Part shown: piece by piece, positions 1-64,000 of the stretch
How positions within the stretch are numbered: the first letter of the stretch is position 1
How the letters are laid out: each line of letters begins with the position of its first letter
DNA from: Pycnopodia helianthoides
Taxonomy: Eukaryota; Echinodermata; Asteroidea; Forcipulatida; Asteriidae
DNA length: 64,000 nucleotides
Assembly: GCA_032158295.1 (NCBI GenBank)
Contig: CM063256.1
Location: forward strand, 558,001 to 622,000
Direction of reading: 5' to 3'
Position numbers and translations under genes: made by a program
Notes under the pieces: model-generated
Databases searched by the model: none
Told to the model about the DNA's origin: nothing
Seen by the model: only the letters and a program-made list of their open reading frames with translations

Positions 1-59
1 CCTACCTTGTTGACTTCCACAATCTTGGGGCGGTAGTCCGTGATCTCACGCTGGAGGGG
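1..59 (-). CDS. Exon I2, cassette 7 (3' part beyond window)
   Basis: It begins after acceptor ttgcag with PLQREITDYRPKIVEVNKVG and is still open at position 1. The final GTAGG could pass for a donor, but the read-through residues NKVG match the I2 consensus of cassettes 4 and 6, so the exon most likely continues. Confidence 0.8.
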
Positions 60-6000: not shown

Positions 6001-9000
6001 TTCCTCTTCCAACACCCTTAACTTTCTTTGATTTTCTTTCCATTACGAATTTTCTTTCCCAACGACCATCCCCTTTACAAGACCTTGCATGACTATCAGC
6101 CGCCATCTTTAGAGGTAAAACTTGACGAAACAAGGGAAACGCACAGGTAATACGCTCAGCGCACAGGATTAGCCAATGGGATATCTTCTCTTGACCTCTA
6201 GCCGAGGGGGCCCTACTCAAATTACATCATGTGTATAAGGTCTTTACTAAAAAGGGTTTGAATTATACAAACAACTTGTTTGATTATTCATGGAAACGTT
6301 GACGGTTCAGTTTTGCATACCTTGTGCTCTTCAGTCTGTTGGCTGAGCACTGGAACGTCTTCACTCTGTGGTTGCTCCTCAGCGAGACGGTTTTGGACCT
6401 CAGTCACCCAGTCAATCAGAGACACAACACCATTGCAGGAATCATTGTACATCTTACGCAGACGGATCTGATAAGGAAAAGTAGAGACATTCTCGTGATA
6501 GCTCTTCTTAACATCACCAAGTCCATCTTCACAAAAATATTTAATTACAACCTTTAACACTCTTTTGATAATTTTTACTCTAGAATTTTAAACATTTTCT
6601 GCTGTTAATTTGAATATGAAGAATTAGAGGTGTGTATACTTTGCTTAATTCATGATGAATAAAACCAATTAAAAACAAACGTTACTTCAAACAGTTGTAT
6701 TCAGTACATTTGTTTAGTTCAATGAGAGCACTGGATGGTACTAGCAACAACTCAAATCAGTCAATGTGGAACTATAGCATTGAAACAACCCTGCAGCGTT
6801 ACAAATATCAATGGTAAAAATCTCCTCTTATATTACGTAGATTACTGTAAACAGCCACTGTATACACATCAAAAGCCAAACATAAAGAAAAGAAATATAA
6901 ATATTTCTTGTTACAAAACCCTTAACACTCTTTTAACATTTGTTCCTCTGTAATAAAATTGTTCAGCCAAAACTTAAGCAAGGCATCTTAAGGGAAGCAT
7001 TAAACACTTTGTCTAGCCCCCTGTTTGCTCTAGCTTTGGTTACTCAAGAAGGTGCATCTTAAAACGTCCTCTTTACCTCTTCTTCCAGTTCCTTCTCCAG
7101 CCTGTCAATGGTCTGCTGTGTGTCTGTGTTGATCTTCTCGCTGCGGTGATCCACCTGGTCAAAGTAACCCCTCAGCTCGTCTATCTTTCTCTGCATCTCT
7201 TCCTGTTGCTCCGGGGAGAGGCGGTTGCGGTTCTCCTGGAGGAACTGCTCTCCCATCACGATCGTCTCCAGCACGGCGGCTTGTTGGATGCGATGCTCTC
7301 ATGAACATCCTGGGCAGAAGAGAGAAGTACCACCACAACCAATTACTTGTTTTGTTTGATCATCACAACTCATCAATTGAGACTATTGATGTAGTCTTAC
7401 CACATTTCCATTTAAGTCCTGCCTTGTCTTCAGTTCCTCTACAACTCGTACGATTCTAGAAGATGCTCCAACTTAATTCGATTTGTCTTGTAAAACTGGA
7501 TTGATGCTTGCTTCTTAAAAATCATTATTTTGTATGTATTGTTTCGAAAATGAGTATGGAAACAAATGTGAGCCTGAATTGAAATATGAATTGTAAGGTT
7601 CCTACCTGGAACTGAGAGTACTCCTTCTTGAGTGGTTCCAGTTCCCTGCTCGTTGGTTTCTTCTTCATCAAGCGGCTGTCCACAGTGGCACACCAGTCCA
7701 GGCGGTTGTTGACAAAGCCCAGTCGGTCCAGGAACAGACGAGCCAGCTCGATATCGTCTTTGCGATCGGTGATCGTGATCTTGAGTGCGTCGTAGCGGCG
7801 GTTGACGTCGAACAACTGGCGCTGAATGTCGAATCCTCTGTGAAAATCAATTTATCCAGAAATTAGAAAAACGTATCTCCCATTAACAGAAATCTTTTTT
7901 TTTTTCCTCACAAATCATTCCAATAAGATATCCTATTTTGACAAAAACAAAAAACAAGATATGTATCTTGCTAATAAGTTCATTATAGAGCTCATTGTTA
8001 AGGTAGTAATTCTAATGCTTTAACATACATTATTACCTTCATAGGCGCATTTTGAGTTCCTGGAAATTTCTCAAGCCTTCCTGGAATATACCCCTGTGTC
8101 ACAGTATGTAGCGCACAAATTAATTCATTCATAAATACCATCTAGCCTCACGTGGGTAATTACCCCTGGTGAAAGAGTAAGCAATAAGTGATCTTGTGAA
8201 AGACCAACTGTCATGAACGGGGATTCGAACCCACACCCCGATGACTCAGCAAACCAGAATTGAGTCCAATGTTCTAACCGCCCAGCCACAAACATCTACA
8301 CCATAATATGAATTTTGGAAGGTTTCAGGATTGCTAGAGTTAAAACTATTTAAAGGAAAGTGATGAATAAACGGACCTGGTGCTTCAGGCTGGATGATGC
8401 TCTTGTCCATCCTGTCCTGAATCTCACGTCGTTCCATCTCTCTTTAGTCATGGTAGAGCTCAGCTGGTTAGAGCGGTAGTGAGGTTTGGTGGAGAGGGGG
8501 GCCTGAAGCTCACGGAGAAGGACGTCTAAGGCCGTTACCCACTTTGTTCAGATCCTCGATGTTGGGCTGGTAGGTGCCTACCTCCAACTGGAATGGCTGT
8601 GGGATGGTAGATTTAAACAAACAGTCAAATTAAAGAGTTACTTGAAGTTGAACAACTGTGGGAACTTAGGGGCCATTACAAGCTGGTATAGAAGCTAACA
8701 TTTCCAATATAATTGGACCAAAAGCCTAATTTGGGTGTTTATTTAAGGGCTTGTACAGCAAGTATACTTTGATTTTTCGGGATAAAAACAAAGGTTTTTA
8801 TATTTTTGATATGCACTAACAAGAGTCGGCTCTGGAAAGGTCATCTAAAATGTCAGTTCTGTTCAAAGAAAAAAATGAAATGAATAACATAACATTGCTG
8901 AGGTGTAGACTTATCCTATCATTTAGTGTGAACAAGACCTCTAGATAAGGCACTGTATCGAAGACAGTTGGAAGACACAAGAAACATATGAAATGTCTTC

Positions 9001-12000
9001 AGCTATACCTTGAGTTCTTTCTCCTGTCTGTCCAGAGTCTTGTTGTCCATAGCAACGGGCTGTAGCTGGCTGAGCTTTACGTTCCATCCCTGTAAGCCAG
9101 CCGGTAGTGTCATGGTAGCCCTCGTTGTATTTGGCAGTAGCCTTCTGCTTCTGATCAAGCTGTCTCTTCCTGTATTAATCAAGGTCAATTAAATCAATTA
9201 ACACAATTCAAAGTTTCTCCATACGTTTGAAGAAATAATTGCAATATGAGACAGGGTACCAGACTCTTTCCCTTCCAGCCTCGGTTTGGCTACATGTATT
9301 TGCATAGAAGTTCAAGTTACCTGAGCTCCAAGAGATCCGAGGTTGTCTTCCAGTTGGTGTCTACATTGCTGAGGACAGCGTTGACTGGCTGGTGTCCTTG
9401 GCTTTGGTTCTCTTGACGATGTCTTCACCGAGCTGATGGATAAGCTTGTATTGTGGACGGTGGTTCTCAAGCTGCGTGGTGTAGTCCTACAAATGCAATC
9501 AAATATCAATATGCAACATATTATTATCAATAAAATATCAATATGCAACATTTTATTATTAGTAAAATATCAATATGCAACATATTATTTTCAATAAAAT
9601 ATCAGTATGTAACATGTTTTTTTGTCAACAAGTCTTTCTGGACATAGTTTCGTGGAACTGTTATGAACTAATACAATCTGGTTCTTGAGTTCCTAAGCTG
9701 TACACATTTCTGGTTCTAGTTCTTACAGTGATTTTGCGGTTGAGTTGGTTCATGTCCATCTTCATGACATCCCGTCGCTCAGTGCCTCTATGACTGGCAT
9801 CTCCCAGTCCTCCAGCTGGTCCACCTCCCGGTCAAAGTCGTTCAGCTTGCTCTGCAGCAGTCGCAGCTGGTCGCCGTGCTTGTCGGTCACGTCGCTGATG
9901 GTGGCGAAGCGGCTGTTGATGCTGTCCAGCTTGGTCATGACGATCTTGGCCTCGCTGGGCTTGGATGTCTCTAGGTAAGTGGCGGCTACCTGTTGGACGG
10001 ATTCCACCGCTGGCCTGTGAGCTTCAATGTCGGTGTGGATCACCTACAGAGCAGACAATCAAAAATGAAACATGACAAGTTATCAAAAAGAACAACTCTT
10101 CCACCTCCAAATCATTTTCAAGTCTTTAACCATCCCCATAAAATCCTCCACCCAAGGAAGGTTGGAAAAAAGGTCCATAAATTGCTTTAACGATTCGGCG
10201 GAATAGAATAGAAGCTGTGATAAACTTCAAAGGAGTTCCTGTGAATCCTTTATTTTCTTTTAGATTGAAGACCAAACTGCAAACAACTGTTAAAAAAATA
10301 ACCTCTTAAAATGCAGCAACTTGTGTGTTTACACAGCTAATGAAAAAACTTGAACCCATCAACATATCATGGCCAAATTTCATGGCTCTGCTAACTGTAA
10401 GCAAAGAATTGGCACTTACGAAGCAGATAAATCCGCGCTTACGTCAAGCGTATTTTACGGGTCAGCAGAGAATGTTTGCCTGTGGGTGTGCGTACTCCAC
10501 GTTACTTGGCATTCTTCCTTACACTGCTAGCGCAAAAAATTTGGCGCTTGCACAGTAAGGGAAGAATGGTGATCACAAACGCAGAATTCGCGGTAAGCAG
10601 AGCCATGAAATCGGGCCCTGATTTGGGATAAAAACTTACCATGTGCTCCTCGATGCTCTCCAGCAGTGGTTCCTTCTTAGCAACGATGATGGAGCCCTTG
10701 TCCATCTTGTGGAACGTTCCTCTCTGCCTCATCCAGCCAGCGCAGGAGCAAGTCCAGTCTGTCCTGGAGGCTCTGGGACTCGGCCAAGGCCGATTGCAGA
10801 TGGGTAAGGTGAGTCTTCAGGTGGGCCACGAGGTCATCGAAGCGATCCTGGAGGTCAACTGAATGTTTAGAGAATCAAACAAAGGTATTAGTTTCAGTTC
10901 TTTATGAAACTTTTAGTGGTAATCTGGCAGGGAACCAGTCACAAGCAATGTACAACACTTGGTATTTTGGCTGGTAACCATGGGAAGGTAAAAACCTTCA
11001 TTCTGGAGTAGCTATGTTGTTTTTTTTCAAATTTAAATTAGCATAACAATTTAGGGTTAAATGTTTCCAGCGATGGGTACCTACCTGCTGTTTCAGTGAC
11101 TTGTGGTTTGATGACAGGTTGGGCATCAGTCAAGTCTGTGCCTGTGTATTTCACCTTCTCAAGATCACTGGCATGACCAACAACATCATCATTGAAGTCC
11201 TGCAAGAAACAGAAATGTCAAAATGATTAACAAAACCATCTCCTTTGTAAATGGTAAAAACCACTATGGACACTTAGCTGAAGTGAAAACAAGTAAATTC
11301 AAACTTGTGTTTTACAATAAGATTGATATTCTCTACCAAAGAAAAAACTGAAATGCTGCCGAAGAAATAATTGCACCTCTGATGTACAAGAATTCCATCG
11401 AAATGTTGAAACAAAAAGAGTCTGTGGAGATGAATCCCTTTCTCAGGTGAATCAACTCACCTTGATCCTGTCGATTTGTTTCTGAATGGCCAGTGGGGCA
11501 GCACTAATTGGCTCCTCCTCCAAGAGGGCCTGCTTGCTCTCCGCCTCCGGCAGCCATGTCGAGAAGACGTTGACAGCATCATTGTAGACCGGTGCTTCTC
11601 CACTAGATCTCGCAACAGCGCGCCGTGGGTGTTGGCTTTGGTCTTGATGGCGTCAACGCTGGCGTTGATGGCATTGGTGCGCTCACGGATGATGTTGGGT
11701 TCAGGGTTCTCCTGGTAGTCGCGGTTGAATTGACGGGAGAGGGCATCGTTGCGGAAGTCACCGAGCATCTTACGGTAGTTCTGTGGTTTGATTTGACGAT
11801 TGAAAACAATGTTTTAGTGAAGGTTTATGTTAACTTGTAAAATGTCTACAAACCGCAAGGGACGGACAACTTTAAGATGCATATCAAGACATTTCAATCA
11901 TATCAATCAGATTATAACTTCTTGCTTTCAAATTTTCTCATTGAGAGTTTTATTATTTGTATAAGAAGAAGCCTGCAGAGATAATGCAACCTACCTTGGC

Positions 12001-15000
12001 TTGATCCAAGTACTTCCCTCCACTCATGTTGATGTACTTCAGATCACCCTTCTGGTCGTTCAAATCATCCACGAACGTTCGGTGCTCATCAAGCTGTCCC
12101 TTCAACTCTTCGTACTCTGTCCCGACGTTATCTACCAAGTCTTCCAGGGTGGTCTCAGCCTCCTGAACCCAGTCTTCGAACCCGGTCACATCCGTCTCGA
12201 ACTTGGCGATGTCTTCGAGGGCTGGAGTGAGCTGGTTCTGGCGGTTGTAGGATTGGGTCAGGACCACGTCGTAGCGGGTCTTGAGGTTGTCACGGCCATC
12301 ACCGAGCTTGGTGGCGTTCTCTGGACTGATGCGTCGGTGTACTGCTTGAGGAAGCCCTCAATGTCCTGGACACATTGGGCTACCGGCTGCTGATGAGCAG
12401 TGATGTCATTGTGAATGACCTGTTTGCAACAACAACAAAAAAAGTATATCAAATCAATCCAAAAGCCATTCTAAAAAACATAACGTTTGGCCACAGCAAA
12501 AAAGAATTAAATAATGGCATTAGTTTTTGATATGGGACTTTAAGATTTTAAAACATTCAAAATGTCGCTGTGGAATTAAGGATTAATGGGCTATACCGTA
12601 TGGGTCTCCAGTTGATCCGAGACAGGAGTGGATTGTTCAGCTTCTGGCTGCTCTGAGCCCAAGGCTTCCTCTGCCTGGGTGATCCAGTCAAGCAGCTCCA
12701 GTAAGGCAGTGAGTTTTCCCTCATCAATGCCTCAATGCGTCTCTGTAATACAAGAATCAATCGAAATTCAACAAGCTTAACTTCAGAGAAATTCTGATAA
12801 GAAAACGTTTTCAACCAGTAGAGAAGAAAAACTGACAGCTCAAAGTCACTGTTCCGAGATTCAAACCTTCCTCCCAATAACAATGAGAATAATTCCTTGA
12901 CACACCTGAAGTGCAAACACATTTGATTCCCTTCCAACCCCCTTCAAAGGCCGGTGACTGGGCTTTTTTCTGTCTCTGCCCCTCAGCAATGGAATAAACT
13001 TCCCACTCATGTTAGAAATTCTACTGGTCTCACTTCTTTTAAAAAGGCCCTCAATACCCATCTTTTCTCTGCTCTCATGTAATCTAGGTTTTCTCTAATC
13101 TGCCCCCCCCCCCCTCCATTTTTTGTTGGCTTTCTCTTCTTTCCATTTCCAGCGCTTTGCATCTTCTTAACAAAAGTGCTTTATAAATGTCCCTTTTTCT
13201 TTCTTTTTTTTAAACTCCCTGGAAGCTACATTTTTTTAATTTGTTTTAGGGCAAGTTTGCCTCAAACAAGGCTAAAAGCCACTCTTGGTAAGGGGCTACA
13301 AGAAGACAAAATACTAAAGATGAAAATAACTCAAGTGAGCTGAAGGTAGGAATTGATATTCCTCTTAAAACAGTCTAGATTGTAGGATGGAGGGAAACAT
13401 GCATCAGGCAAGGAGTTCCAAAGAGATGCAGTAGTGGAATAAAGCTGTTGGAATGGCTCTTTCTACATCTCAGCAAAGCAAGAGTGTATGGGTGAGGACA
13501 AGCAGAAAGCTTGGTTTTACGCTCAAACATCCTGATAGGAGGAACTAGGTCGGACACACTGGTGGCACATTTATCAAGAAATGATCCATCTCCCTAAAAA
13601 TTATCTCCACCACTCCTTACCCTCTCCTCCTCCTCTCGCTTGAGTTTGTCCAGCTTGGCCGAGTCCTCCTTCAGCCAGTCCTTGGCGTTCTGCGAAGCAT
13701 TCTCAAAGTTGACTCGCATCATGCCCACCTTCTCATTCAGGACGTCTCGCTGCTCTGGGTTGAGACGGTCGGCGTACTCACGGTCAAAGTGACCTGCCTT
13801 GCTGAGAGTGTCACTGATGTCGGGCTGTTTGCTCTCCACATCTTCAACAACTTGCTGAGGGTTAAATGATCACCCAAAAAAAGGGCTCGTTTTGTTAGCT
13901 TGAAGTTTGAAATAAACTCTTCCTATCTTATACTTGGCTCATACTTAACAAGAATTGCAAAATCAAACCAAGATTTCTTACATCACAAGGGAAACTTATT
14001 GGGTAAATTTTTAAAACAATTTGGGCTTGAATAAAGAAAACTTTGTAGGCTCAAGTCATGCTGAGTTTAAACCACAAAATTGCAATCTGTTTTGAGTGAA
14101 ATATGTATGTTACGTGACAGCGATTGGTAATGGCCAATCGTCTTGCCCCATCAAAAATGAAATTCTGGGCCCGAATTATCAACCAACTAACAACAATTTA
14201 TAAAAACTAAATACATGCACTTCATAAATGCAACATACCAAAACACACACTGCAAAGTTTCCCCACATCAACATGCAGTCTAGACACAAGTTTAAAAATC
14301 TTCCAATATTTTCATCATTTTCACTTCTGCCTGCTTTGTGCATTTCCTAACATAACAATAATGTCAACACTTCTGCTTCAATAAGAATTTCAGTTTTTTA
14401 GGCACAGAGCCCAGTTGTTATCGAAGTATTAAGGAATCTATAGACCCTTGCATTGGCCCCCATCTTTGATGAAGTGTGCATGCCTGAGAGGCTGTCATTG
14501 GCTGAGAGTTGTGCGCAGCGCGTACACGCGTGCACGCTTCCATTGTTTTTCATCAAAGATGGTGGTCAATGACGTCATGTGCAATCCATCAATTGATAAT
14601 ACCATGAATATCTCCAGCTCATCTTCCAGCGGTTGGATCTCCGTGGCGCGTGGCCTGCTGCGTTCTAGTTTGGTCTGAGTGGCTGTAATCCAGTCCAGGT
14701 TGTCTTGGACGTTCATGGTCTCATCAACGCAGCGGTCAGCGATCTCCAGGTCATCCAGGGACAGTCTGAGGCGTTTACGGAGGGCCTCATAGCGACGGTT
14801 CACCTCGTCCAGCTCATTCTGGATGGGGGTTGACCCTGATAGTGAGAAATCAATAAATGAGTCAAAAAGAGAACAACAAAAACTGCAAAACAAACTTGAG
14901 CAGTATTCACCCACTAAGCTAGGATTTGGGTGATTAGAGCAGTCTCACCGAACAACAGGGTCCAATTTCATAGAGCTGCTTAAGCGGAAATTATTGCTTA

Positions 15001-18000
15001 AGCATTTTCTGCTTAGCAAAAAAAAAGCAGGATACCAGTCACAGATTGTACATGTGACATGGTATTTTGGCTGGTAACCTTATTCTGGTTAGCACAATTT
15101 GGTTGTGCTCAGCCACTTTTTGTGCTGAAGCAGCTCTATGAAACGGGGCCCAGGTTTACTTCAGTAGGATTTGAAACATTGCATCATGACTCATATCAGA
15201 CTTATTACACGGCGTCTCCGTGACTTCACTTCGAAGGTATAAATTCGATAGTTTGTACATCAAAACATAGCTGTGTGAATAGTCCTGAGGATATACTATT
15301 GATTGGTTTGCAAATCAAGACGCCTACATTGTGATGAATGAGTTACCTGTGAACTCTGCATCAAACTCCTCAGAGATCCCCGGTACTGCTGGTTCTCCCT
15401 GGCCAAGCCGTGTGGAGAAGTAGAGAGGGTTCCTGGAGACTGGAGCAGCGACATCCTTGATGAGACGGTCTAGATCGTTACCAACGGTGTTGGTGTCTCG
15501 GATGCTCGGCTCATAGTCGTCTACCTCCTGCAGGAGTGGCTGTTAAGGAGAGAAGTCAGAGGGATTGAGGATTCATTCATTTATTGATTGATTTACTTTA
15601 GAGACTTATTTAGAGAAGTCAGAGGGATTGAGGATTCATTGACTTATTGATTTATTTAGAGAAGTCAGAGGGATTGAGGATTCATTCATTTATTGATTTA
15701 TTTTAGAGACTTATTTTAGTGAAGTCTGAGGGATTGGGGATTCATTGACTTATTGATTTATTTTAGAGATTTATTCTAGAGAAGTCTGAGGATTCATTTA
15801 TTTATTTTTAAAAGTATCTATATTTTGTTAATATTGACTAGGGAGCTTGATTCGGAAAGGATTTCAATTGTCCAAGAATGCAGCCTGAGCTAAAACACAC
15901 AGCCATAACCAAAACAGAAATGAGTTTGCTAAGAGTTTGCAAAAGCATTTTACAAATTTAATGAGGGTAAATGCTGTCATGCTGTTTCAAGGATTTCAAA
16001 ACAAAATATAATCGGAACTCCAAAAGAGGACAAATGTCAGAGGGAAAAACGGAAAGTTTTGGGGAGATATAAACAAAAAATTATATGTCAGACTTTGTTC
16101 AAATTCCTAAATATCAGACAAATGAAGATAAAAATAAATGATTAAAAAAAAACCATTTTCATTGGGATTAGGTGAATTAAATCAATTAGATTTGTTACCA
16201 AAACTCAATTGAACATTATATAAAGTTAATGGTGCTATTTCACTGGGCTTACCAAACACATTCTGACCTTTGACCTTAACTAGAAAAAATGAGCTGCAAA
16301 TCAGATTATGCATGCTCAGGTCAAAGGCCTGCACCCATTCCCAGTTTGCAGCTTTGATGTTTTGACTGACTTGCTGATTGATTCGTGGAGTATTGAAACA
16401 AGTTTTTTTCAAAATGTATTCGTATTCAGAATTCCCGACTTGTGACTTTGACATTTTGAGCAACAAGCTGAACTAAGGTCCAAATTTGCTGAATTCAAAT
16501 CAATTAAGGGAAAGCACACTGATATAGCACCTCCAAAGTTATACTTCAATCCAAATAAATAAAAACGTGTGAAATGTTACAAAAATGGAAAAATTAAACC
16601 TTGTTGAAAAAAATGTTCTTCCCAACCCCAATCAGCATTCCAAAACCATATTCCTGCAAATGCTACTGACTTTTCCTTTGAAATAATCAGGAAATTTTTA
16701 ACACAAATAAAACACTTTAGGGCGTGCACGTCTCATGTGTATTCAGATATTTTGTCCGTCAAAGTGCGTGATTTTCATTCCTTCCGATGCTAAAATATAC
16801 CAAAGTTCAAAACATTAGAATGCACATGAGTCCCTGGCCCAATTTCATGGATCTGCTTACCGGCGAACTCTGCGCTTACAGCACCCTGTTAACCATGTAA
16901 GATCTATGGGCCGTAAGCGCCAAACTTAGCGGTAAGCAGAGCCATGAAATTGGGCCTGGCTGCACAGTCTAAGGAACAGTCCAAAGGTTATGAAGTATTG
17001 GGACAAATTTGACTGCCATTGAAACATTTTTACAAGGCAGGGTTTACTAGTAGTAGCATTTGCACAATTTTTTGAGATGAAATGTTTTTAGTATTAATGG
17101 GTCACTCAATGTTTTTAATACAATAAATGAACTATGAAATGTTTTATTTTTAGTTATGTGTTCAAATCATGAAGTTGTCAAAGTATTAGATGATAATGGT
17201 TTATATCTGGTTAATACAAATGTTGGTGTAATTACCCCCAAACATTGAAATGAATATTGACAAAGTTAGTAAGGTGTTATTAGTTCATGATGAATACATA
17301 TTGCTGACAAAATCCTGTAAAATTAAAATGGTTAACAAAGTAATAGTGTGATCAACTACCACCAACATAGAATCTGTGGAGATAAATCCCACCATGCAAA
17401 CATTGACGGTGGACGAAAATTGGTTAGAACACGTATGCCATAACAAAGACAAAATCTATACAAAGTGTTTATACTTCAGTATCGTTCTGGTATGTAGTTT
17501 TAAGATTCTACACATTTATTTGCTCAGTATGGGACAAAAAATCTCACATTGTTTAATCAATGAGACCAATAAACAAATGAATGAATGCATGATTGAATGA
17601 ATAAATGAATAAATGAATAAATGAATAAGTGAATAAATGAATAAATGAATAAATGAATAAGTGAATAAATGAATGAGCGAATGTGTTTGTACTCTCCTCT
17701 ATAACACAAGTCTTCTGAAAATTTCCCTTGATTTTTGTTTCACTTGGAGTAAATCTGAGACAACTGACAAGGAGAAATATTCAAGTGCTCTAAAAACTTT
17801 GACCAACAGATCTATTCAATCTGGCCCAAAATAAGTCCCTCTTTACAAACTCATGATGTCACTCTTGTACAAAAGTTGATCTTGTTTTTACTTTGAGTCA
17901 AAAAGTGCTCATATGGAGCAGGTCTGACATATTAGAGATGTTTTAAAATTTCCTAAACAGTTTTGACTAATGAGATCTCAAAGTTTTAGGTAACACTTGA

Positions 18001-48000: not shown

Positions 48001-51000
48001 GAAGAAGGTCTTCTGGGCGGCTGTGCGCTCCTCGTATTGTTTGGTCCTTAACACACACAAAAACAAAGCAAAATGTGTTTTTAAGTACGATTCTCTGCTT
48101 ACTAGATATTGTTAACACGAAATAAAACAAAACGGAATAGAGACTTGTGGGTAATAGCGTTTTATTTAGTTCACCCTTGAAGTTCATCAACAAATTTATA
48201 AGAATTTTTAATAATAATAACAGTGGTACAATTCCGCCACACAGTGATGCTCAAGGAACTCAACAATAATGCCAAATCGCTCCAAAACTGCAAGTTTGTT
48301 TATACTACATTAGATCAGCCAGTCAAACCGCAGAGCGCTCAGCGGGGTGCATTGGCATAGGGCATGTCTTTAGCGCATCAAAGAACTGTATGCCTTTCAG
48401 CGAGTAATACCATGTCTCTCATAGAAATACAGTCCGATGGAAATCCAACCAAAATTGTACTGGATTAATTTCGACATGACCTCTTACCTTCGAGCGAGGG
48501 CGGTATCCAAGCAGTCCCAGTTGAGTTCAATGTTTAGTCAGCATCGTCTTGATCTCAGAGACATCAGTTGCCTTGGGATGTTTCATCAACTCCTCTGCCA
48601 CAACATGGATCTTCTTGTACAGAGGACGATGATCATCGACCTGCATCTTGTATGTCTGAAAAAAGGAAATAAGATTCTACATGTTTCTCTTCCTGATGTG
48701 ATAATTGCTGTCTTTTGTTTGAGAGGATTTTGACCTAATTTGTGATTACGTCACGACTAAAAATTCTACTGATTTTTTTATTCACTGAACAGCTGTGTTG
48801 TGCATTTTGTGCACAGGCTTGATGATTGAGCAACTGACATGTACTATCATTACCATATAAGTGCAATTCTTAGTCCTTGTCCGAATTGGCAGCTATGGCT
48901 ATGGCTGAATCGCAGAGTCCTCACATGTTGAAGTATTTGAAGTCCTTAGCAACACCCTTAGCAACAGTCGTAGCCATAGCCAATTCAGACACAGCCTTTA
49001 GCAGGTGTAATGTTGATTGATTTATCAAGTCATATCCAGGAATATTAATAGAAGAATGTCTCACCTTGAGTTGGTCACCAACGATTGGAAGATCTTGTTC
49101 CATGAACTTCTTGCTCTCGGTGTGCTCCAGGATTGGAAGGAGCCAGTCTTCTAGCTCATCAACCAGCTTGTCAAAGTCAACCAGACGGTCTTTCAAGCTT
49201 GCCATCTGGCGGCCGTGCTCCTGGGTGGTGTCTTTCACCTGTGTGAAACAAAAACGGTAACTCAAACTTTAGGCTGGATTTTGAAGCCTTACTTTTAAAG
49301 CATTTTAAAACTGACTTTTAAGTAGTTGCAACTTCAAAGATTTTAAGTGTCTTGTAGAAGTAATTTGGGGTTGAACAAAGAAAACTTGACTAAAGCGGGA
49401 TATGAACCAACAACCTCCGGATCTAAGCCCTACCAAATGAGCTATCTAGCCTATGTTGGCAGTCTCCCTATTTTGTCAATATCTTTGTTCGGGTGCCAGT
49501 TAGAAGCCATACAACTGTTAAATGCCATGTAGCCAGGGATCACACCCAAGTTTACGATACAACCAGGGAAGTGGTAGCCAGGGGGTGCGACTTTTTCATT
49601 TAAAATATAAGGTAATAAACTACAAGGGAAACGGACTGGATAAATTCTAAATAAATTGGGGTTGGACAAAGACTAGAGCAGGTTTTGAACCAACAACCTC
49701 CGGATCAACGTGCCGGCGCTCTACCAACTGAGCTATCTAGCACTATGTTGGCCGTCTCCCTATTTTGTCAATATCTTTGCTAGGGGATGCCAGTTAGAAG
49801 CCATACAACCCAAAGAAGTCATACCTTATTGAATCGGGAGTGGAGTGTCTCCAGTTTGGATTGGATGATCTGTGCCTCCATGGGCTCGCACTGCTGAACA
49901 AAACTGTTTGCCTTCATCACACACTCTTCAATCATGTTCTGTTTGGCTGTGATGTCTTCATGGATGACCTGAGTAGATGACCGAGAAAAATCAAAGTTTA
50001 GTTTAGTCCAGGTTATTACCTTTTATTGCATAAACATCAAAATACAACGTGGTGCAAAGGGGAAACTTCACTAAATGGAGACCCTTGACCACACATCAAA
50101 ATAAAACAAAGAAACAAAGACAACAGTAAAAAAGCAAAAACAACTGTAGAAAACAGGGAAGTATACAGCAACAGTAATAAATGTCATTAAATCACAACAA
50201 AACAATATATAAATATTATAGTCAATTTACAATACAATTATGGCAACGTATGGAAGATGCAAGACGATGAAGAAAAAATACTCCACCCCAAATAAAAAGG
50301 TAACTAGTAAGGTAGAGGTCATGGAGGACAGATTTAAATTGAGAAATAACTTTCAAAGTTCTAAGGTCATCAGAAAGTTTTTTGATGAATGTTTTGTTAT
50401 AGTGTACTTATCCTATTCTATTTCATTTCTGATGGAGTGGATTAGAAAGATTTAATCAGAGAACGGCTCAATACAATCTAGATTTTCTTAAAGAATTACA
50501 TAATGTTGTGAATTGTAGTGATTATTTCTAATTGCTAAAATGAAACTACTTAATCTTATCAATAGGGTAAATCTCGCTTAATCCTTTGTAATGACTAAAT
50601 CCAACCTTCATGGTGAACTTTTTAATCCTCTTCATCCTACTTTTATCACTTTTGAAATCCCATCTTAATCCTTATCCCCTGTAACTACTAGCACATCATG
50701 TCCATCCTTACCATGATCCCTTAATCCTGCCCATATTTAAACCTAATCCCATCATAATCCTAATCTACTTACATCTCCCTGCTGCATGTGCTCCTGCATG
50801 GGTGCCTTCTTGACCACAACCACAGTACCCTTGTCCATCTTGTGGACGTCCTTCTCAGTGCCGTCCAGCCAGCTCATCAGATCGTTCAGGTTGTCGTGCA
50901 TGGACTGCGACTGAGCGAGGGCGTCCTGCAGGAGGCGAGAGCGATTGTTCAGCTGCCCGTCTAGGTTGTCATACTTGTCAACAATGTCCTCTGTAAACAA

Positions 51001-54000
51001 AAACAAACAAATAGAAATTGTGACAACAGTCTCATTAAAAACAACACACAGAGACCCTTAATAATTACATCAACTCTTATATAGTGCAACCCCACAGAGT
51101 GATTATTGCATTTCAAACATTATTACCCCTGGTCACTGGGCCATTATTTCATTCCTTAAACCATCTCAGCTCCCTGGTGAGTATACAGCCTGTGCTGCCA
51201 AGTATGTAGCGCACCGAGCTAAATCAATCACAATCTTTGCCTTCACATGAACCCATTTACCCCTGAGTGATGAGAAGCGATTATCGTTAAGTGTCTTTCT
51301 CAAGGACACAAGTGTCATGACCAGGAATCGAACCCACAACCTGATGACTCAGAACCAGAACTTGAGTCCGATGCACTAAACTGCTTGGCCACAACCCTTT
51401 TGTATCAATGAACATTACCTGTCATTTTGTTGTTATGGTCTAGTGCTTCGTCAAATACAACATAAAGAAATGACTCTTTGTCAAAACAAAAAAGGGTCTA
51501 AAGACAAGATATTGATGAAAGACAGAAAGCTCTGCAATTCAATCTCCAAACCCTAGGAGTTCCAAGAGTTATTCCAGTACCACCAGCAAACAGACTCACC
51601 TGTGTTTCTCTGGACAGGCACCTGCACGTTCGGCTGAATATTGACCAGGTCATCTCCGTACTCTCGCACCTTATCCACATCCGTCCTGTGCTTCTTCACA
51701 TCCTTCTTGAAGTTGTCAAACTCATCAATCTGCCTCTTGATGGTGTCAGTCTCGGCACCGATGGGCTTGTGGAGGAGTGTTTGCAGGGTCTCGCCAGCGT
51801 CCTGGAGCCAGACGTTGGTGTCGTCAGACTTGTCCCAGTAGCGCTTGTGTTTTTCCATCAGGCGATGGAGGTGGCGGGCATGGTTGAAGCTCTCCGTTTT
51901 CAGCTTCTCATAGCGGGTGTTGAAGCCCTCCAGTGTCTTCCGCAGGAAATCTGAGTCGGCTGCTCCTGGAAGCTACGCAGGAATTGCTTGGACATCACGC
52001 GCTGGCGGAACTCGGCCAGGAATTCCTTGAATGTCTAGAAGAGAAAGGAAAAGAAATAAATACTAATTTAATAGCTCTATCAATAATCCTTATTAATTTA
52101 AAAAATACCTTGAATCTTTGTGAAAGGTCTATTTGCAAGAAAGTAAGTCATTTTTTAAGAGGACTCTGAAAGAAGATCAAAGTGAAAAATGTTGATTAAA
52201 ATATGAATATAATTTCAGTATCTCTAACGAGCCAGCTGAAACTTTGATAAGTAATCATGTGATTCATACCAACATAGATCGCAGCTGCCAACGAGTAAGA
52301 TGTAAGTGTGCACAGCCACAATCATGGGTACACTTTTTGTTACAAAGACACCAAATGAACGACACATAAATATTGAGTAACTCTTTGCAGATCTTGTTTT
52401 CGACAAACTCAAGTACTTTCTACTCTTCATTCACACAACACTGGTTAATTAATTTACAAAAAACATTAAAATAACTGTTACATCACTGGTTTTCAAAGTG
52501 TTGTTCATAACATGGACACGAAAAATGTGTACCCATGATCGTGGCTGTGAACAACTACAAGTAAATTACAAAATATGAGTGTTTCAAGATTCAGTAAAAG
52601 AGTTTTGTAAATGTTTTTCAAATTTGCTTTTGGGAAGAGGAGAGAAGGGCGGCTGGGTTGAAGGTGAGTTGGATAACTATGGGTGTCACATTACCTTGCC
52701 TGAAGACAGGAACTTCTGAGTAGCTTTGTTCATGTACTTCAGATCGGCCGAGTGTGTGACGACGTCATCAGTGAAGTTCTGATGTTCCTCAGTCTGGCGG
52801 TCAGTGTGTCGTAGTCGCTGCTGACGTTCCTCAAGATGGTGGTGATCTCTTGCTCGGCGCCTCTCAGCCACGTCTCGAACTCGCCGCATCCCTCCTCGAT
52901 CTTGTCCAGATCCTGGAACCCGAAGGTGAGCTTATTGGTGCGGTCGGTGGAGTTGCGGTTGATGACGTCGTAGCGTGATTTCAGCTGGTCCACAGCCTCC
53001 TCCAGGTCACGCCCTGTTGTCGTCGGTCATCTTCTTGCCCTTGGCCTTGATGAGGGCCATGGCGTCTTGGGCCACCTGTTGGATTGGCTCGTTGTGGTCC
53101 TGAATGTCTTCATTGATGTCCTGGTGCGGAATGAAAATAGAGAGGTACATAAGAGCTGAGTGAGGTTAAGTTGCAAGAAGACTTTGCACAATGTGAAAGA
53201 TTAAGGATCCAAAATAGCGTGTCGTGGCCGAGCAGTCAAGGGGAACTCAAGCTGTGGTGTTTCTGATCAGCGGAGTTTGGGTTCGAGTTCCGAACTTGAC
53301 ACTTAAGCAAGACACTTGACCATTATTGCTTCGTCCTTCAGATGGGACATAAAGCTGTAGGTCCCCTGTGTTGTGTAATGCACGTAGGAACCCGGTACAC
53401 TTATCGCTAAGAGAAGGGGTTCCACCCTGGTGCCTTCTGGTATGGTTGGCTGCAGATTGCGCCACAGCACATTACATGATGCTATGCAAATAAATGGCTC
53501 TTGTAATTCAAACATAGCTCCACATACCTTGTAGAAAATAAATAACTAAAACAATGAGCGCTTTGAGACGCCCTCGGGTGTGAGAAAGCACTTTATAAAA
53601 ACTACATGATATAATTTTTGGGATCATGGTCACTCCTTATTGGTGTAACGATTATGGTACAGACGAGAGAACTCCATTAGCCTTTTTGAAGTATGGTGGA
53701 CACTATAGGAGTGCACTGTTTGGTTTAGGTGTATACAGATAAATTGACCCAAACCTAGTGTACCCTTGAAATGTGTCCACTATGTCTCAAAATGGCTTAA
53801 GGTGTTACCGCAAACATTACAAGAATATCCTCAAGAGTGTTTTTACCTTTTGTACAGCGACCTGGTTGGTGAGAGTCTGGGTCTGCTCAGTCATGGGTTG
53901 CTTAGAGGCGAGCTGTTCCTCTTTGACGCGTACCCACTCAAGAAGGTCTCTCAGAGCTTGCATGACTGACCCCCACTCCAAACCAAGATTGGACTGAATA

Positions 54001-57000
54001 GCAAGAAAATATACCATACAAAAAACATTAGACTCATAAGAAATATGTCAAGTAATAGAACCACAAGGTTGGGTGAATGGGTAAAATTAACTAGGTGGGA
54101 TTTGAACCAACGACCTCCGATTAACGTGCCGGCGCTCTACCAACTGAGCAATCTAGCCCTTTGTTGGAGGGAAAAACACTTAAAGCAATTCTTTAGGTTG
54201 TAATATGAAAACATCATTGAGCTGTGTATTTGTTATGTTTTTTTTTCTTCATAATTTCCAAGAGCACTTAACAGAAAACTGAAGCCATTGTTAATATACT
54301 TATTAGGGTCTTTTTCTGTTCATCACAAATTGTTTTTTTATTTGTTTGGTGTAAATGTTATGTATTTTTGTTTTATCTGTTGACTTTGTGCTTTTACTGG
54401 AACCATAACGGACCCATTTTTGTTATTTACTGCCCGCTTCATACTTCACGTGAATTGAAAACCAAATCAAAGATCCCTGCGTCACAACTGATAAACAGCG
54501 CGTACGTGATTGTTTGCATTACGTAATTCATTTCGCATTCGTGAAGTATGAAACTGGGCTTAACAAACAAGTAAATAAAAGCAAAAGTTTCCTCTAGATT
54601 GTAGAGTTTCTTGCCCTACCTCTTCCTCCTGTTGCAGGTTGATGCTGTGGATCTGCGTCTCCGTCTCCTTCACGATTTGCTCCGAGATAACCCAGATCTG
54701 ATCCAAGAAGGTTCGGAGTTCATTGATGCGCCTCTGCAGGGTCTCGATCTGCTCGGGAGACAGCTTCTCCTTGTTGACACGGAGGTACGCCTCGGCTTCA
54801 CTGATCACCTCCTGTATCGGGGCTCGTTTCTCACGGATGCTGCTCTGGATACTCTGTGGGAAGAATAGGGTCAGGATGAGTGTCCAAACTGCAGGCATAA
54901 TATTTGGTCCTCGGAAAAAAAGTAGGAATATTTTATCAACTGACCTACATGTACACATGGTGTACACTTTAATAGACATTTCATCCCAATTTGTTGGATT
55001 TTCCAAGGGCGAAAAAAATGGAAATCAGACTGAAGTAGGAAGAATAACATGCCTTAAACTGACTGTCTCTTAATCCAAGATGACTGTATTTGTCGTGGCT
55101 GAGCAGTTAAGAGCACTGGACTCAAGCTCTGGTGTTTCTGATCAGCTTGGTATGGGTTTGAGTCCCAGCCATGGCACTTATGTTTCTTGAGCAAGATACT
55201 TTACCATAATTGCTTTGCCCTTCAAAAGTTTCCCATAGACTTTAAGATTTTCCAATAGAAGTGCCCTTTGCAAAATGAAAATGGCCATGCCCTCTGCCAG
55301 ATGAAATTCAAGGCCTGGTGGGTGATACATTTATCTGACTTTCCTTAGCCACAATCGAGACGAGGGCACTTGTTTATCGTATAATATTTTAGACTATCAC
55401 TTTTGAAATAAATGTTGGTCGAGCCATGGCCTTTGTTGCCCATGATCTTGGCCTTGGTGCCCCTTCAAAAGTTTCTCATAGACTTTAAGATTTTCCAAAA
55501 GAAGTGCCCTTTGCAAATGAAAATGGCCATGATACTTTAATCTGACTTTCCTTTGCCACAAAGGTACACTGTCAGAGTCAGAGACAGCGAGCAGCCCCCT
55601 CTTACCTTGATATCATCCATGCCTTGAGTCAGCGATCCCAGATCGTTGTTTCCTGCCTTCTTCTGGTTGATCTCAGCGTCCATGGTGATCGCCCATTCCT
55701 GTGTGTCCTTCAGACGGTTGTTGATGCTGTTGTACTCACTCAGGAGCTCCAGGAGGTCTTGTCGACCAGTCAGACGTCTCAGGAGTTCATCATAGCGGTG
55801 GCGAGTTTGCTGGGTCTCGTCAAGGATTGGTGATTGCTCTGTCACAATATTGAAAAGTAAAATAACTAGCTCTAAATAATCAAGCTCTACAAGTTTCATT
55901 TTAAATTTTTATTTGTTAATCCCCCAAAATGCATTCAAAAACAATCAAATATCCTTAAAATCTTCCCAACTTCTATTTCTGATTTCATAGATTTACCTAT
56001 CAAGAGCAATATATAATGTTTAACCAGTTTTTCTACAAGGCAAAACAGAAACGGAACCAACCACAAATATTGCTTATTCAGAACTGCCATAACTAAACAG
56101 AATTTGATTATGCTAAGCAAATCTGAATTCTGAGATGCTGTGATTTTTACAGCCTCTCTAAAGGTAACTTTCAAAACTCACCTTCCATGAAGCTTTGGTC
56201 AAGGTTCTCTTCAAAGATCTTGGGTCGTAGCCTCTCTCCCGGACGTCTCATCTGACCAACAGACGTGGACTTCTGATGCGGCATGACGGCCAGCGGCAAC
56301 TCCGTCTCCTTGACCAGTCTGTCCAGGGTTGTTCCCAGGTTGCAGACGTTGACGATCTGGGGCTCATAGGCGACCACCTCCTGACGGACTGGTCGTACCT
56401 CCTTCAGCTGGATGTCAATGGTGTCAGAGTCCCTCGAGACTGGTTGGAGCTGGTGGACACGGCGCTCAGTGTTGTCCAGCCAGTGGCTGGTGTCCTTGTT
56501 TGCTGCACCGTACTTCTTAGCGGCTGCCTGGCGATTCTCAAACTGAGAATTCCTGTGACAAAAAAAAGTTTCCACAATAGGTTTTATTTCATAAATTGTT
56601 TCTCATAAATTTTGAAACAAACGTCTGCTTCTTTTGCAGCTGCCTGGCGATTCTCAAACTGAGAATTCCTGTGACCCAAATTTCCCCAACCGGTATTATT
56701 TGACAAATTTCGAAACAAACATCTGCCTCTTTTGTATAGTTGATATGAACAATTTTTAAACGAGCTCACAAATTTACTCAGCATTGTCAAAAAATGATTT
56801 GTTTCATATTCTGTCTCTTTGATAGCTAATGGAGAAACAAAAAGATCTTACTTTACTTTGAAATTTGTTTATTTCACATCCAACAGCACAATTAGCGACA
56901 ATAACAGGATGAATAGGAAACAAGAAGAAATGTTAAGTTTTAGATGTGGGGGAGGAAAACCCTGAATGGGGGGAAACCAATGCAATCAGGTAGGGACTGA

Positions 57001-60000
57001 AAACCCAATCTACATTCAAGGCTCCGTTCTGAGGCAGGATTCCAACCGGGGTCCAAAGAGGTGAAAGGCAGGGAAAGAAACCACAGAGCCAGCCTGATCC
57101 CCTAGTTTCTATTCCTACCCAGAATGCCTGAAAACTTTTTACTCCGATCTCACAAAGAAAAAAAAACTACCATACCTCTTCTCCAGGACATCCTCCAGGG
57201 TCTCCCAGTTGCTGTCCACACTGTCCAGGACCTTCTGGACGAAGGTGGTGTCATTGCCTCTAGGGTGAGACAGTAACTCCTCGCCAAGCTTGTGTACCTT
57301 GCTCAGCTGTGGCTTGTGGTTCTCAACTTGACGTGTAGAATCCTAAGTCATGGGCGAGAGAAAGATAAGAGAATCAGGTTTAGAGTTGCCAACATTTGCA
57401 TTCACGGAGATTTTGTCCAACAATAGGGAGATTACATTCAACATAATAGGGAAAGAGTTTCCACAATCAGGGAGATTTTCAACTTTGTGTATCAGAACAT
57501 GGAAAGATTGATTTATTTTTTAGGGAACTTTCTGCAGAATCAGGGACAGTTGGCAGCTCTGCAGGTTAACAGAGAAATGTCAATAACTCAATTGGCAGTA
57601 TTTTTTTACTGCGTGAGGGCGTGTGTGAACTGAATTTACCTGATATAAAACCAACAGTTTTTTCAGTGTTGGTATTATAATGGTTACTTTATATGGCTAA
57701 TGATACAAGATACATGTAGCAACATACAGGCAGTCAAGATGAGATCAAACTGTAATTGTCATGCAAGGCAATTCGTTGTTGTAAAATCCCTAGTCAGTTC
57801 ACAAGCACTAATAATACAATGATATCATATAGCTTAATATGTTGTGCATGAAACAGGCAAAGTTTCATAGTAGGTTGGAGTTTATAAGGCTACACTTACA
57901 GTGAGTTTACTGTAGACGGCTGGAAGCTCATCCTTCATGAAGCGTCGAGACTCCAGTGTCTCCAGCAGCGGTAGCTCCCAGTTCTCCAACAGGTCTACCT
58001 CCTTCTCAAACTCGTTCAGCTTGCCGGTCAGATCCGTCAGCTGGCCACCGTGTCTCTTGGCAGTGTGGTTCACACCGGCGAAGCGGCTGTTCACCTCCTC
58101 CATGCGGTTCTTCAACACCTCGGCGACTTTGGGTTCGCTCATGCGGATCACCTTGCTGACGGCATCGTTCATGGATTGCACCACGGGTGCGTGGTTGTCA
58201 ACATCGGTCTGGAAGACCTGTAGCAAGAATATTAACAGAGAAAATAGAATTAGCTGTTGCAAACTGCTTACCAACCAAAAGGACCTGTAGTATAAATGCA
58301 AAAAATGATTAGTGGCAGGACGTTTCGACCCTAGCAGAGTCTTTCTCTAAGGCTCTGCTAGGGTCAAAATGTCAGGCCACTAACTATTTTTTTGCAAGAA
58401 TATTAACAGTGAAAAATTGGGTTCAAGGCTGTCTACAGAATAAATATAAAGACTTTCTGCTCAATATTAACTCAAAGTAAATTTCCTTAAGGGGGGGGTC
58501 AAACACTCCTCGTAAAAGTTACTTCAAATGGTTACTTTAAGTGATCACAGCGAGTCTGTGGCCAGACATTGAACTCTCACCCAGTTACTGCACACACGGG
58601 CGATAATGACAGCGCCTTATAAAGCTTTTGTCTGTGATGTAATGCTTGTAGTAACTGTGTGAGGGTTAATGTTTCCATGTCCAGCCACAAGCACACTACA
58701 CACAAGACAGTGCCACTTTAAATGTTTCAATTGTTTAGTCAAGCCTTTATATAGGGACCATTCATTTCTGTATGATCATCACTGTACGCCCAAACATGGT
58801 CTTATTGTTGACTTTAAAATAATACAAAATTATTGTACAAGTGTCTCAGAAACATTATATAAAACAGACATTTTGTTTTGTTTTAGACACATAGATACGA
58901 TGTCAACATGTGAAACATTGGAGATTGTCAATTCAGGTCATGACCTTTACTTTGACCTCTTTGGTGGAGTGGAAGTCGGTCAGATCTTGCAGCTGTTTGA
59001 GGTCGATATGGGCATTTTGGTTCCGGTCAATTCTGGATGCTATGATCTCTAAAGGGTTTTAATGAATAATAATTGAGTCTTGTCTCTGCAGAAGAAATAA
59101 CATTTTCTGCTCAACAATTTGAAGAAGATGGGCCAAGGACAAGATAAATGGATATCTCCAGAATGTCTAACTTTATGCAGTATTGACAGTCTGAGGAGAA
59201 ATCAGCAGAAACAAGGCGAGACAATGCGTATCAAGGTAGAAGACTTACCCGACAGGTCTGTGAGCATTCCTGCAGGGGCTCCTTCTCCACCTTGATGACA
59301 GTTCCCTTATCCATGATATGAGCTTCCTTCTCGGCCTGGTCCAACCACCTCAGCAGTCCATCCAGGCTGTCCTGAACGCTGCGGGAGCGGCCCAGGGCAT
59401 CCTGAAGGCTGTTCAGGCGATCGTTGATCTGTCCGTGGAGGGAGTTGTAGCGATGGTTCACGTCCTCCGTGGTACGGCCAACACTTGTGCCCAGCTGCGG
59501 TTGAACTGCGCAGAGCTTGTCACCGAAGGTCTTCACAGTGTCGATCTCATCAGAGAAGTGGATCACATCATCCATGAATGTCTGAGCAAGGGATGGAACA
59601 CAAAATTGAAATCAAATCTCAACATAAAAACTTTCAAAGGGACTTCATCTCATAAAAATGTCATCCCTCTAAACCCCAGTGGGAACCTCTTGCAGAGGAT
59701 GAAAATCAACTACTGTCTTGCTGTTTCAGAGACCAAAGGTGTCTTATTAACTCACTTGAAAGAAACACCTTAGAAACCTTGTCAAAATTAGTCCAGAACA
59801 ACCAGCAGATAAGAACCATCCAGGAAAGGGTTTTTCACCCGCCGTTAATTCACCTTATTTGAAATTGGGTGTCGGAGAAAACATGGCAGAAGTTTACAGT
59901 GCCTTGGGTTACAGTTATTTACAAACCACAGAGACTTAGATTGCTAACTTCTTGAAAACAAGCAGGGGTCTCTACATGTCTCACTGAAAAATCACTCTAC

Positions 60001-63000
60001 ACGTCTTTTTTAAATACAATGACCTCTACCCTTCCAGATCGCTCCAAAACTACAGGTTTGTTTATACTACATTTAATCAGCCAGTTGAACCGCATAGCGC
60101 TCAGCGGGGTACATTAGCGTAGGGCATGTCTTTAGCGCATTCAAGAACTGTGTGCCTTTCAGCGAGTATAACCATGTCTCTCATAGAAATACAGTCCAAC
60201 AGAAATCCAACAAAAATTTGACATCGGAGAATTGTTATCTGTCTACCTGTTCTGGATTAATTCTAACACGACCCCTTAAGATGTTCAAAATCATCACCCC
60301 CCTTTTATCAATCTAATAAATCATTTAGAAATCAATGAGTTTTGATTTTTGAAATGTACCTTCAGATCATCAATCTGTTTCTGGATCTCAGAGGTCTCAG
60401 CTGGCACCGGTTTGCTGAGCATGTTGTCCAACGAGGTCCGTGAATTCCCCAACCACCGGTCAGCGACGCTGACCGAGTTCTGGTAGCGCTGGAGCCTGTC
60501 GGCGATGTCGGCCAGGCTGTTGGTGAATTGGATGCTGTTGGTCTTCAGGTTGGCGTAGCGGTCATTCAGGTCAGTGGTCTGGTCACGGATGATGTTGGTG
60601 TCCTGGTTCTCCTGGAAGGAGCGGATGAAATCCCGAGGCATGGTGGTTGCACGGAACTCCGACAAATCAGCTTTGTAATTCTGTTATTCGAACAAAAAAA
60701 AAGAACGACATCTTATTCCATACATCCAACAATCAGACAAGACTGATGTTATTGGAAATCTGTGATTAAAACAAGATTTTGTCCATACAGCTGGCTCATC
60801 AAAATGCGAACCCACCTTAGAATCGTTGATGAACTTCTGCCCTGTCATATTGATGAACTTCAGGTCTCCCTTCTGATCATTGACATCCTCAGTGAAAGCC
60901 TTCTGGTCCTCGATCTGCTTCCTCAGGGTGTCCAGATCCTGTGGGACGTTCTTCTGCGCCTGCTGCAGCTGCCTCTCCGCGGTGTCGATCCAGGTGGAGA
61001 AGGAATCCTTCTCCTGCTCGTACTTGTTCAGGTCGTTCAGGCCGTAGTTCTGCTTGGTCTGGCGCTGATGGGACTGGTTGCTCACAACGTCGTAGCGAGG
61101 CTGCAGGTTTTCCACAACGTTGTGGAGCTTGGTGCGGTCGGCATCGCGAAGACGGGGGCCGTACTGATCCAAGAAGCGGGTGGCTTCTTCCACGTTCTTG
61201 ACCACTGGGGTCTGTTGCTTCAGGATGTCCTCATGAAGAGACTGGGTAAATTCAGAAAGCGAAATCAACAAATTTACTTCCATGAACAAAGGCCATGGGA
61301 AGATAGACAGCTACCAAACAGGGCATTTACAGACTCAGTTATCATACCAAAAATTATAAAAATTCAGTGTGTAGCTGTGTTGTCATGTCCAATGAGTTGT
61401 GTTTGTGGAATGGGGGATCAGGTTGGCTCAGTGGTTTCTTTCCCTGCCTTTGACCTCTGTGGACCCCGGTGCGAATCCTACCTCAAACCGGAGCCTTACA
61501 TGTGGATTGTGTTGTCAGTCCCTGAATACCTGGGTTTTCCCCCATTTGGGGTTTTCCCCCATTTGGGGTTTTCCCCCATTTGGGGTTTTCCCCCATTTGG
61601 GGTTTTCCCCCATTTGGGGTTTTCCTCCCACAAAATTCAACAGTTCTTCTTGTTTCCTATTCATCCTGTTATTGGCCCTAATTGTGCTGTTGGAAGTGTA
61701 ATACAATAAATAGTGTTTGGCTGTTCGCTTCTGCCCATCACAACAGCCACATGTTCTTAGTTAGCGCATTAGACCCCGACTTTCTGAAGTTAAACCTAAC
61801 TTGACTGCTTTCTAAAAAGCAAAATCTCAAAAATATAAGGCGAACTCCTGCCAAATGACAGACCTGTATGTTGATATCTTACCGCGTGTTGGTTGACCTG
61901 CTGGGTCAGAGGTCGTGTCTCTTCACTCAATGGCTGCTCAGATCCTAGACCCTTCTCAGCGTTGTCTATCCAGTTATTGATATGAGTCACATCCTCTAGG
62001 ATCTTCTGGCTTCGTTGATTCAGGGTAGACTGGCAATCAAAAGAGATCAATGTGTTTTAATCTCTAAGCCAACAAAATATTTTAGATATCTTGAAATCAA
62101 TACTCAAAAAGATGAACATGCCATGTTAAGACCGGTTGGCTTGTAGAGTACAACTTACATCAGTGTAAGGCAAAATCAAAATTGGAGTACTGGGGTGATA
62201 AGTGTGGTTTTTAAAACGAGACTTGTTTCAATGAAGATGACGCTATCATTTTTATGACAAATGTGAAGCTATTTTCATTCTCAGGCATTTAAAAAAGCAA
62301 ACAATTCTATGCAAAAAGGGTGTTTTCCTTTTATTATTTTCTTGCAACTTCGATGATCAATTGAGCCCAAATTTTCACAGGTGTGTTATTTTATGCATAT
62401 GTTTGGATACACAAATTGAGGATACTAGTCTTTGGCAAATACTAAAAGTATAACCTGCTTTTAATGGATCCCTCCGCAGTATCACATTTACTTTATTCTC
62501 ATCTCTATAATTTCATTACATAACTTTTTATGATTTACTTTCTTTGGTTTAATACCATGGAATAAATCAACCTGAAACCTGTCGTAGTTAATAATCTTGA
62601 TAGTTAAGTTTTTTCTCTTCAAACTCAGTACATACCATTTCGTCTTGGTCGTTCCTCAGCTGATTGAGACGATTCTCAGAGTTCATGAGTCCCTGACGAT
62701 ACTTCCTGAGTAGCTCATCATAGCGATTGCGTAGATCGCTGCTGAGTCGTTGCAGGGCGTCTTTCTGTTCAGGAGAGAGTCGGTCAATGTTCTGATTGTA
62801 GAAGGTGTCGATGCGATGGATCATGTCATTGATGGGGTGCTCATGGTTGTCAATGTCCTGCACCAGTATCTAATCAAGAGAGCAAAAATTAAATTACGAC
62901 AACTTGCCTCAAAATTATTCTACAGTAATAATAAAAATAATATTGACTCTTATTACAATACAATTCCACAGAGCGATCATTGTGCTTCTAACTGTGTTAC

Positions 63001-64000: not shown

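Follow-up and report, generated by a model that had tools for sequence, protein, structure and literature searches.

The stretch of Pycnopodia helianthoides DNA analysed here (64,000 nucleotides, hereafter the window) is likely the interior of an echinoderm spectraplakin gene of the MACF1/dystonin/Short stop family, in which a segment of the rod was amplified before the split from Lytechinus. A multi-exon cassette recurs in tandem and in constant register, the copies match those of a Lytechinus protein one-to-one, and six repeats of each cassette are homologous to a block of which the other spectraplakins examined have a single copy. Spectraplakins join actin, bound by their CH domains, to microtubules, bound by GAS2, via a spectrin rod. 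The array would be situated between the N-terminal CH pair and the C-terminal EF-hand/GAS2 end of such a protein. In the proposed course of events, an ancestral rod segment comprising some seven repeats, one of which has a Ser/Arg-rich loop between its helices B and C, would have been duplicated in tandem, exons and introns included, to at least eight copies; this duplication would have been complete before the window species and Lytechinus parted.

The exons are encoded on the minus strand of the window. Exons were found from look-alike open frames on this strand, which form eleven types of seven members each, and splice sites were then placed, giving 77 exons, 76 introns and 17,604 coding bases. 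The exon order A-B-C-D-E-F1-F2-G-H-I1-I2, as proposed in the preliminary description, is seen seven times and spans the whole window:

56182..64000, minus strand, cassette 1: 9 exons, with F1+F2 fused and I1+I2 fused; no frameshift; exon A cut by the window end
47573..55838, minus strand, cassette 2: 11 exons, with E+F1 fused and G split; 4 one-base indels
37675..47166, minus strand, cassette 3: 12 exons, with D split and the A/B intron moved; 2 one-base indels
28938..37072, minus strand, cassette 4: 11 exons; 2 one-base indels; G two codons shorter near its end
15347..27965, minus strand, cassette 5: 11 exons; I1/I2 intron of 5080 nt; 2 one-base indels
8377..14835, minus strand, cassette 6: 11 exons, free of in-frame stops; 9 one-base indels
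1..7835, minus strand, cassette 7: 12 exons, with G split; 2 one-base indels; exon I2 cut by the window end

Canonical exon lengths are 233 nt (A), 234 nt (B), 147 nt (C), 426 nt (D), 321 nt (E), 115 nt (F1), 218 nt (F2), 318 nt (G), 167 nt (H), 160 nt (I1) and 193 nt (I2). They sum to 2532 nt, or 844 codons, and bear out the cassette of about 845 residues that was first estimated. Intron phases at the exon starts, from A to I2, read 1-0-0-0-0-0-1-0-0-2-0, and this pattern is repeated. The matching of lengths and phases claimed at the outset is thus a nearly exact recurrence, broken by fused and split exons and one moved intron in cassettes 1, 2, 3 and 7. Exons C, D, E, F1, F2, H and I1 are of constant length across copies save for one-base deviations, fusions and splits. 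Exon A is shorter in cassettes 5 (229 nt) and 7 (230 nt), exons A and B of cassette 3 measure 262 and 204 nt, with the intron between them displaced by ~30 nt, and exon G of cassette 4 is 312 nt long (canonical 318). The greatest range is found in I2, which spans 193 to 220 nt; the fused I1+I2 exon of cassette 1 exceeds the sum of the two by 18 nt. Two exons may serve as examples:

25477..25902, minus strand, exon D of cassette 5: 426 nt, encoding the end of repeat 2 and the start of repeat 3
37675..37867, minus strand, exon I2 of cassette 3: contains the PHYRST loop

The PHYRST loop is the most length-variable part of the cassette and sits where spectraplakins have a Ser/Arg-rich loop; it may bend or be modified. 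Over the first 785 columns of the protein alignment, an internal gap occurs in one copy only and measures two codons; the alignment leaves out the first ~11 codons of exon A, a part in which cassettes 5 and 7 are each short by one codon. Such scarce length change within cassettes would fit selection for a regular, continuous rod.

All 76 introns have GT..AG ends. By hand tally, an intron is present at 73 of the 76 canonical boundary sites, one of the 73 being moved. Absent are the F1/F2 and I1/I2 introns of cassette 1 and the E/F1 intron of cassette 2, and three introns are extra:

49239-49824, extra intron within exon G of cassette 2
42187-42665, extra intron within exon D of cassette 3
2481-2957, extra intron within exon G of cassette 7, at another place than that of cassette 2

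These three extra and three missing introns represent intron turnover after the duplications.

Between cassettes, in-register protein identity is 31.3–43.4 % (mean 37.1 %, 21 pairs), and the nine shifted registers give mean identities of only 5.5–7.9 %. Exons are nearest to their own type, as the preliminary description implied: each of the 76 exon pieces compared has its best match within its own type. Borders of the pieces were taken from the alignment, and the cut I2 of cassette 7 was dropped (under the 25-residue limit). All same-type copies rank first for 63 of the 76 pieces; the others are pieces of exons A, B, C and F1. In 5259 codon pairs, from which exons with stops or non-canonical length are excluded, the first, second and third codon positions differ in fractions of 0.47, 0.38 and 0.59, which is consistent with protein-level constraint among strongly diverged copies. 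The introns had been described as not homologous between cassettes, and this agrees with the comparison made here. Same-position introns account for 6 of 122 intron matching stretches, close to the proportion of same-position pairs among all possible pairs (175 of 2850), so dispersed repeats explain the intron matches. A recent segmental duplication and a stutter of the assembly are both rejected, since the copies are only 31–43 % identical at the protein level and same-position introns are unrelated. What stands of the original view, an old amplification kept under selection, is an old multi-exon super-repeat held in register; its count of eight spectrin repeats does not.

The introns have contents of their own. 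The best of the 122 stretches of dispersed repeat extends over 355 bases at 81 %; examples lie in the B/C intron of cassette 4 and the F2/G intron of cassette 3. Rfam gives tRNA-like matches in introns at 129-201 (minus), 23135-23207 (plus), 24549-24622 (plus), 47456-47528 (minus), 49670-49742 (minus) and 54088-54158 (minus), and ARAGORN predicts four tRNAs, two of which coincide with Rfam matches. An open frame across 47456-47528 reads GSIAQLVECR..VVGSNPA, a string that we take to be one found in tRNA-derived SINE elements; the intronic tRNA-like matches are perhaps copies of such elements. The F1/F2 intron of cassette 3 holds a minisatellite at 40826-41085 (15-base unit, 17.3 copies, 96 % matches). 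Two introns carry arrays of 17-base units: C/D of cassette 1 (61532-61630, 5.8 copies) and A/B of cassette 3 (46703-46845, 8.5 copies). Additionally, the intron between H and I1 of cassette 5 contains an open frame (20780-21034, plus) that reads ..APSLWNDIP.. near its end; it has no Pfam match and looks like the terminal part of a LINE reverse transcriptase.

Seven spectrin repeats, and not the eight first counted, make up each cassette, as judged from tryptophan columns and from the predicted structure of a sea cucumber relative, P0001. Helix-A Trp residues fall in columns 37, 164, 277, 411, 521, 633 and 739, and the Trp of column 705 is interpreted as belonging to a helix C. In the P0001 model the A-B stretch is a three-helix unit (ten-residue mean pLDDT ~78–92) and the loop ahead of it is unordered (26–44); the model is of modest confidence (mean pLDDT 68.7, pTM 0.32) and served for helix counting only. 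Seven helix-A columns together with a single three-helix unit for A-B rule out an eight-repeat count. The six fold matches of the P0001 model at E ≤0.001 are rods of alpha-actinin, beta-spectrin and plectin, and the best solved-structure match to the cassette profile is dystrophin. Pfam Spectrin matches all seven cassettes. The segments of cassette 3 for repeats 2–7 match it at E 3e-13 to 2e-05, three of the six exceeding the curated cut-off; repeat 1 has no match in cassette 3 and one at E 0.004 in cassette 4. Repeat 3 contains a long stretch between helices, and repeat 7 houses the variable PHYRST loop.

The family assignment comes from protein searches. Exons D+E of cassette 1, placed in a long carrier frame that admits long candidates, gave 58 matches among 198 candidates, led by the Lytechinus protein P0005 and then by MACF1 and dystonin types; one unnamed ostracod protein with MACF1/dystonin-type domain make-up is also among them. 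A Lytechinus segment used as query gave 71 matches among 1259 candidates: itself, 67 spectraplakins (so classed by protein name or domain marks) at E 4e-86 to 8e-33, two dystrophins (1e-23 and 6e-19) and one SYNE1 (2e-13).

Against the cassette profile, the best block of 124 spectraplakin-type rows, many of them isoforms of one species, scores 104–414 bits (median 271), with median profile positions 169–802 and a second block of at most 131 bits. At least 400 of 611 core positions are covered by the best block in 123 of the 124, and none of the 124 has two blocks of ≥150 bits in one protein. The best block is ahead of the second only 1.2-fold in P0026. The lone row with its best block elsewhere (profile 143–420, 120 bits) is P0126 of Nezara viridula, whose gene model may be broken. 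Among the spectraplakins examined, those of insects, molluscs and vertebrates carry a single copy of the block; in the gastropod Gigantopelta it occupies residues 1293–1926, following the CH domains (161–264) and plakin SH3 (802–866) and preceding the EF-hands and GAS2 (4642–4788). MACF1, dystonin and Short stop are alike with the window in a rod block that matches six cassette repeats in the same order, but they contain it once per protein and not in tandem, and their loop is Ser/Arg-rich and often longer.

Homology of the A-B repeat is less secure, because the match to a profile rotated to begin at exon C ends at the loop (640–700) in 89 of 124 rows and continues past it into A-B in 33. In the 17 rows listed singly the rotated match runs past the loop in 9 and ends at it in 8. 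Residues 3322–4145 of the Anthophora protein align to rotated profile positions 3–825 of 848, and Latimeria MACF1 to 35–784. Eight spectraplakins can be aligned over the loop and the helix that follows, but only three of the eight have the repeat 1 Trp. As far as alignment can tell, six of the cassette repeats certainly correspond to the early spectraplakin rod, and the remaining repeat (exons A-B) probably does so too; the family assignment and the amplification are independent of the latter homology.

The closest relative is P0005 of Lytechinus variegatus (5683 aa, ‘microtubule-actin cross-linking factor 1-like isoform X4’), the top match at E 6.9e-252. The cassette profile matches it in eight consecutive places, as six full cassettes that score 935–1078 each and two partial ones. 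Lv1 to Lv7 are each nearest the same-numbered window cassette, in identical order, with identities of 49–62 % to the partner and 31–44 % to the others; for cassettes 1–7 the partner values are 53 % (Lv1 partial), 50 %, 62 %, 55 %, 49 %, 54 % and 60 %. Lytechinus cassette 8 has no partner in the window. In a tree of 31 rows (midpoint-rooted for drawing only) the 15 echinoderm cassettes form a single clade (100/100), apart from vertebrate blocks and from arthropod plus gastropod blocks, and all seven window/Lytechinus pairs are recovered at UFboot 100. One clade that includes the seven pairs points to an amplification in the echinoderm or ambulacrarian line that predates the split between the window species and Lytechinus; hemichordate and amphioxus spectraplakins were absent among the matches listed. 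The name of P0005 is silent on the tandem design, and exons and introns are visible in the window.

A profile of the seven cassettes matched three proteins, the best being P0001 of Apostichopus japonicus (‘putative nesprin-1’, 848 aa). It spans one cassette from D to I2 and then A-B and D of the next; since it crosses from one cassette to another, the sea cucumber has tandem copies too. P0001 differs from the window in being a fragmentary model with exons missing. One tree places it with cassette 2 (89/91), but the cassette that follows in P0001 is not placed with cassette 3.

The array could instead belong to a rod-only paralogue, a copy of the spectraplakin segment that became a separate gene and was amplified without the actin- and microtubule-binding ends as a structural spacer or scaffold. 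Such a paralogue would agree with the domain content so far seen: a Pfam scan found no CH, plakin, EF-hand, GAS2 or plectin-repeat domains inside the seven cassettes, and the precomputed annotation of P0005 holds spectrin-type domains exclusively, with no CH, plakin, EF-hand or GAS2 domain. However, the P0005 model looks truncated at both ends, because its initial Met falls within F2 of cassette 1 and its last residue within D of cassette 8, while window cassette 1 extends in frame upstream of that start. Likewise, a second, single-copy echinoderm block is absent among the matches listed. We regard the rod-only paralogue as unlikely.

Frame-aware alignment of the cassettes revealed 21 one-base indels: cassette 1 is free of them, and cassettes 2–7 have 4, 2, 2, 2, 9 and 2. 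In-frame stops are lacking in all seven. Two more indels, called at the outermost edges of cassettes 5 and 7, were discarded as edge effects. The five complete cassettes measure 2532, 2530, 2549, 2527 and 2556 nt in the raw sequence. Three of the five fail the description ‘always a multiple of 3’, and the range of 843–853 codons given with it holds once the 21 indels are allowed for and not in the raw sequence. The indels are probably base-level assembly errors in a working gene, since homologous reading resumes, stops are lacking and splice sites are intact. That they are real, and that the array is decaying or pseudogenised and the gene dead in the window species, is quite improbable. The number of indels, spread over six of seven cassettes with nine in cassette 6, would suit decay, yet all 76 splice pairs are intact, the homologous frame is picked up again past each indel, and the unequal differences at the three codon positions given above also argue against it. 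Neutral decay with 21 indels is expected, by a rough ratio, to leave several nonsense changes too, whereas none is present.

A giant nuclear tether of the nesprin type (SYNE/ANC-1/MSP-300), to which the preliminary description had linked the array, is disfavoured and hardly to be credited. It draws on the ‘putative nesprin-1’ name of P0001 and on Pfam Spectrin_SYNE1 (Nesprin-1, spectrin repeats), which matches six of seven cassettes. Neither discriminates, since Spectrin_SYNE1 also matches both spectraplakins scanned (9.5e-37 and 1.6e-52). The only nesprin among the matches listed, a partial Branchiostoma SYNE1, has a best block of 75 bits (E 2e-13 with the Lytechinus query), against 104–414 bits for all spectraplakin rows, 230–414 in the 17 listed singly, and E down to 4e-86; moreover, the loop and next helix align with spectraplakins. 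The public name of P0001 seems to mislabel a rod of spectraplakin type. A dystrophin-type rod is rejected, the best blocks of the two dystrophins scoring just 43 and 64 bits.

Caenorhabditis elegans ANC-1, also a giant protein, resembles the window in having six tandem repeats near cassette length; an excerpt of PMC8139857 gives these as 903 residues each with almost 100 % nucleotide conservation, and states that spectrin repeats had not been identified within them. ANC-1 differs in being a KASH protein and in its nearly identical repeats, compared with 31–43 % identity between window cassettes. An ANC-1-type repeat is rejected for the window on that divergence and on the presence of Pfam Spectrin in seven of seven cassettes; Pfam Spectrin_Anc-1 matched one of eight segments only, at E 0.56. 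The ANC-1 repeats are probably a separate, convergent case.

Returning to the spectraplakin reading, the array would act as a spacer that lengthens an actin-microtubule cross-linker. A spectrin repeat is ~5 nm long, so that seven repeats would add ~35 nm per cassette and ~280 nm for eight. Order and register, and number for the copies seen, have been fixed since before the species split, which may point to selection on rod length, in the manner of a molecular ruler. It is conceivable, and put forward tentatively, that the gene encodes a complete echinoderm spectraplakin whose rod is stretched by at least seven extra seven-repeat modules under such selection. If so, ~50 extra spectrin repeats, or ~5,900 residues, would be added to the usual 5,000–7,700 for a protein of roughly 11,000–13,600 residues.

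No description of an echinoderm spectraplakin amplification was found in the literature searched, mostly at the level of listings; the main text of PMC9145010 contains neither ‘echinoderm’ nor ‘sea urchin’. A lineage that multiplied a defined spectraplakin rod module and has since preserved the order and register of the copies would be a natural experiment on the effects of rod length, and individually conserved cassettes would allow deletion of whole units. The nesprin-1 annotation in the sea cucumber would be misleading. Giant tethers may repeatedly have grown module by module, as in the window and, probably as a separate case, in ANC-1.
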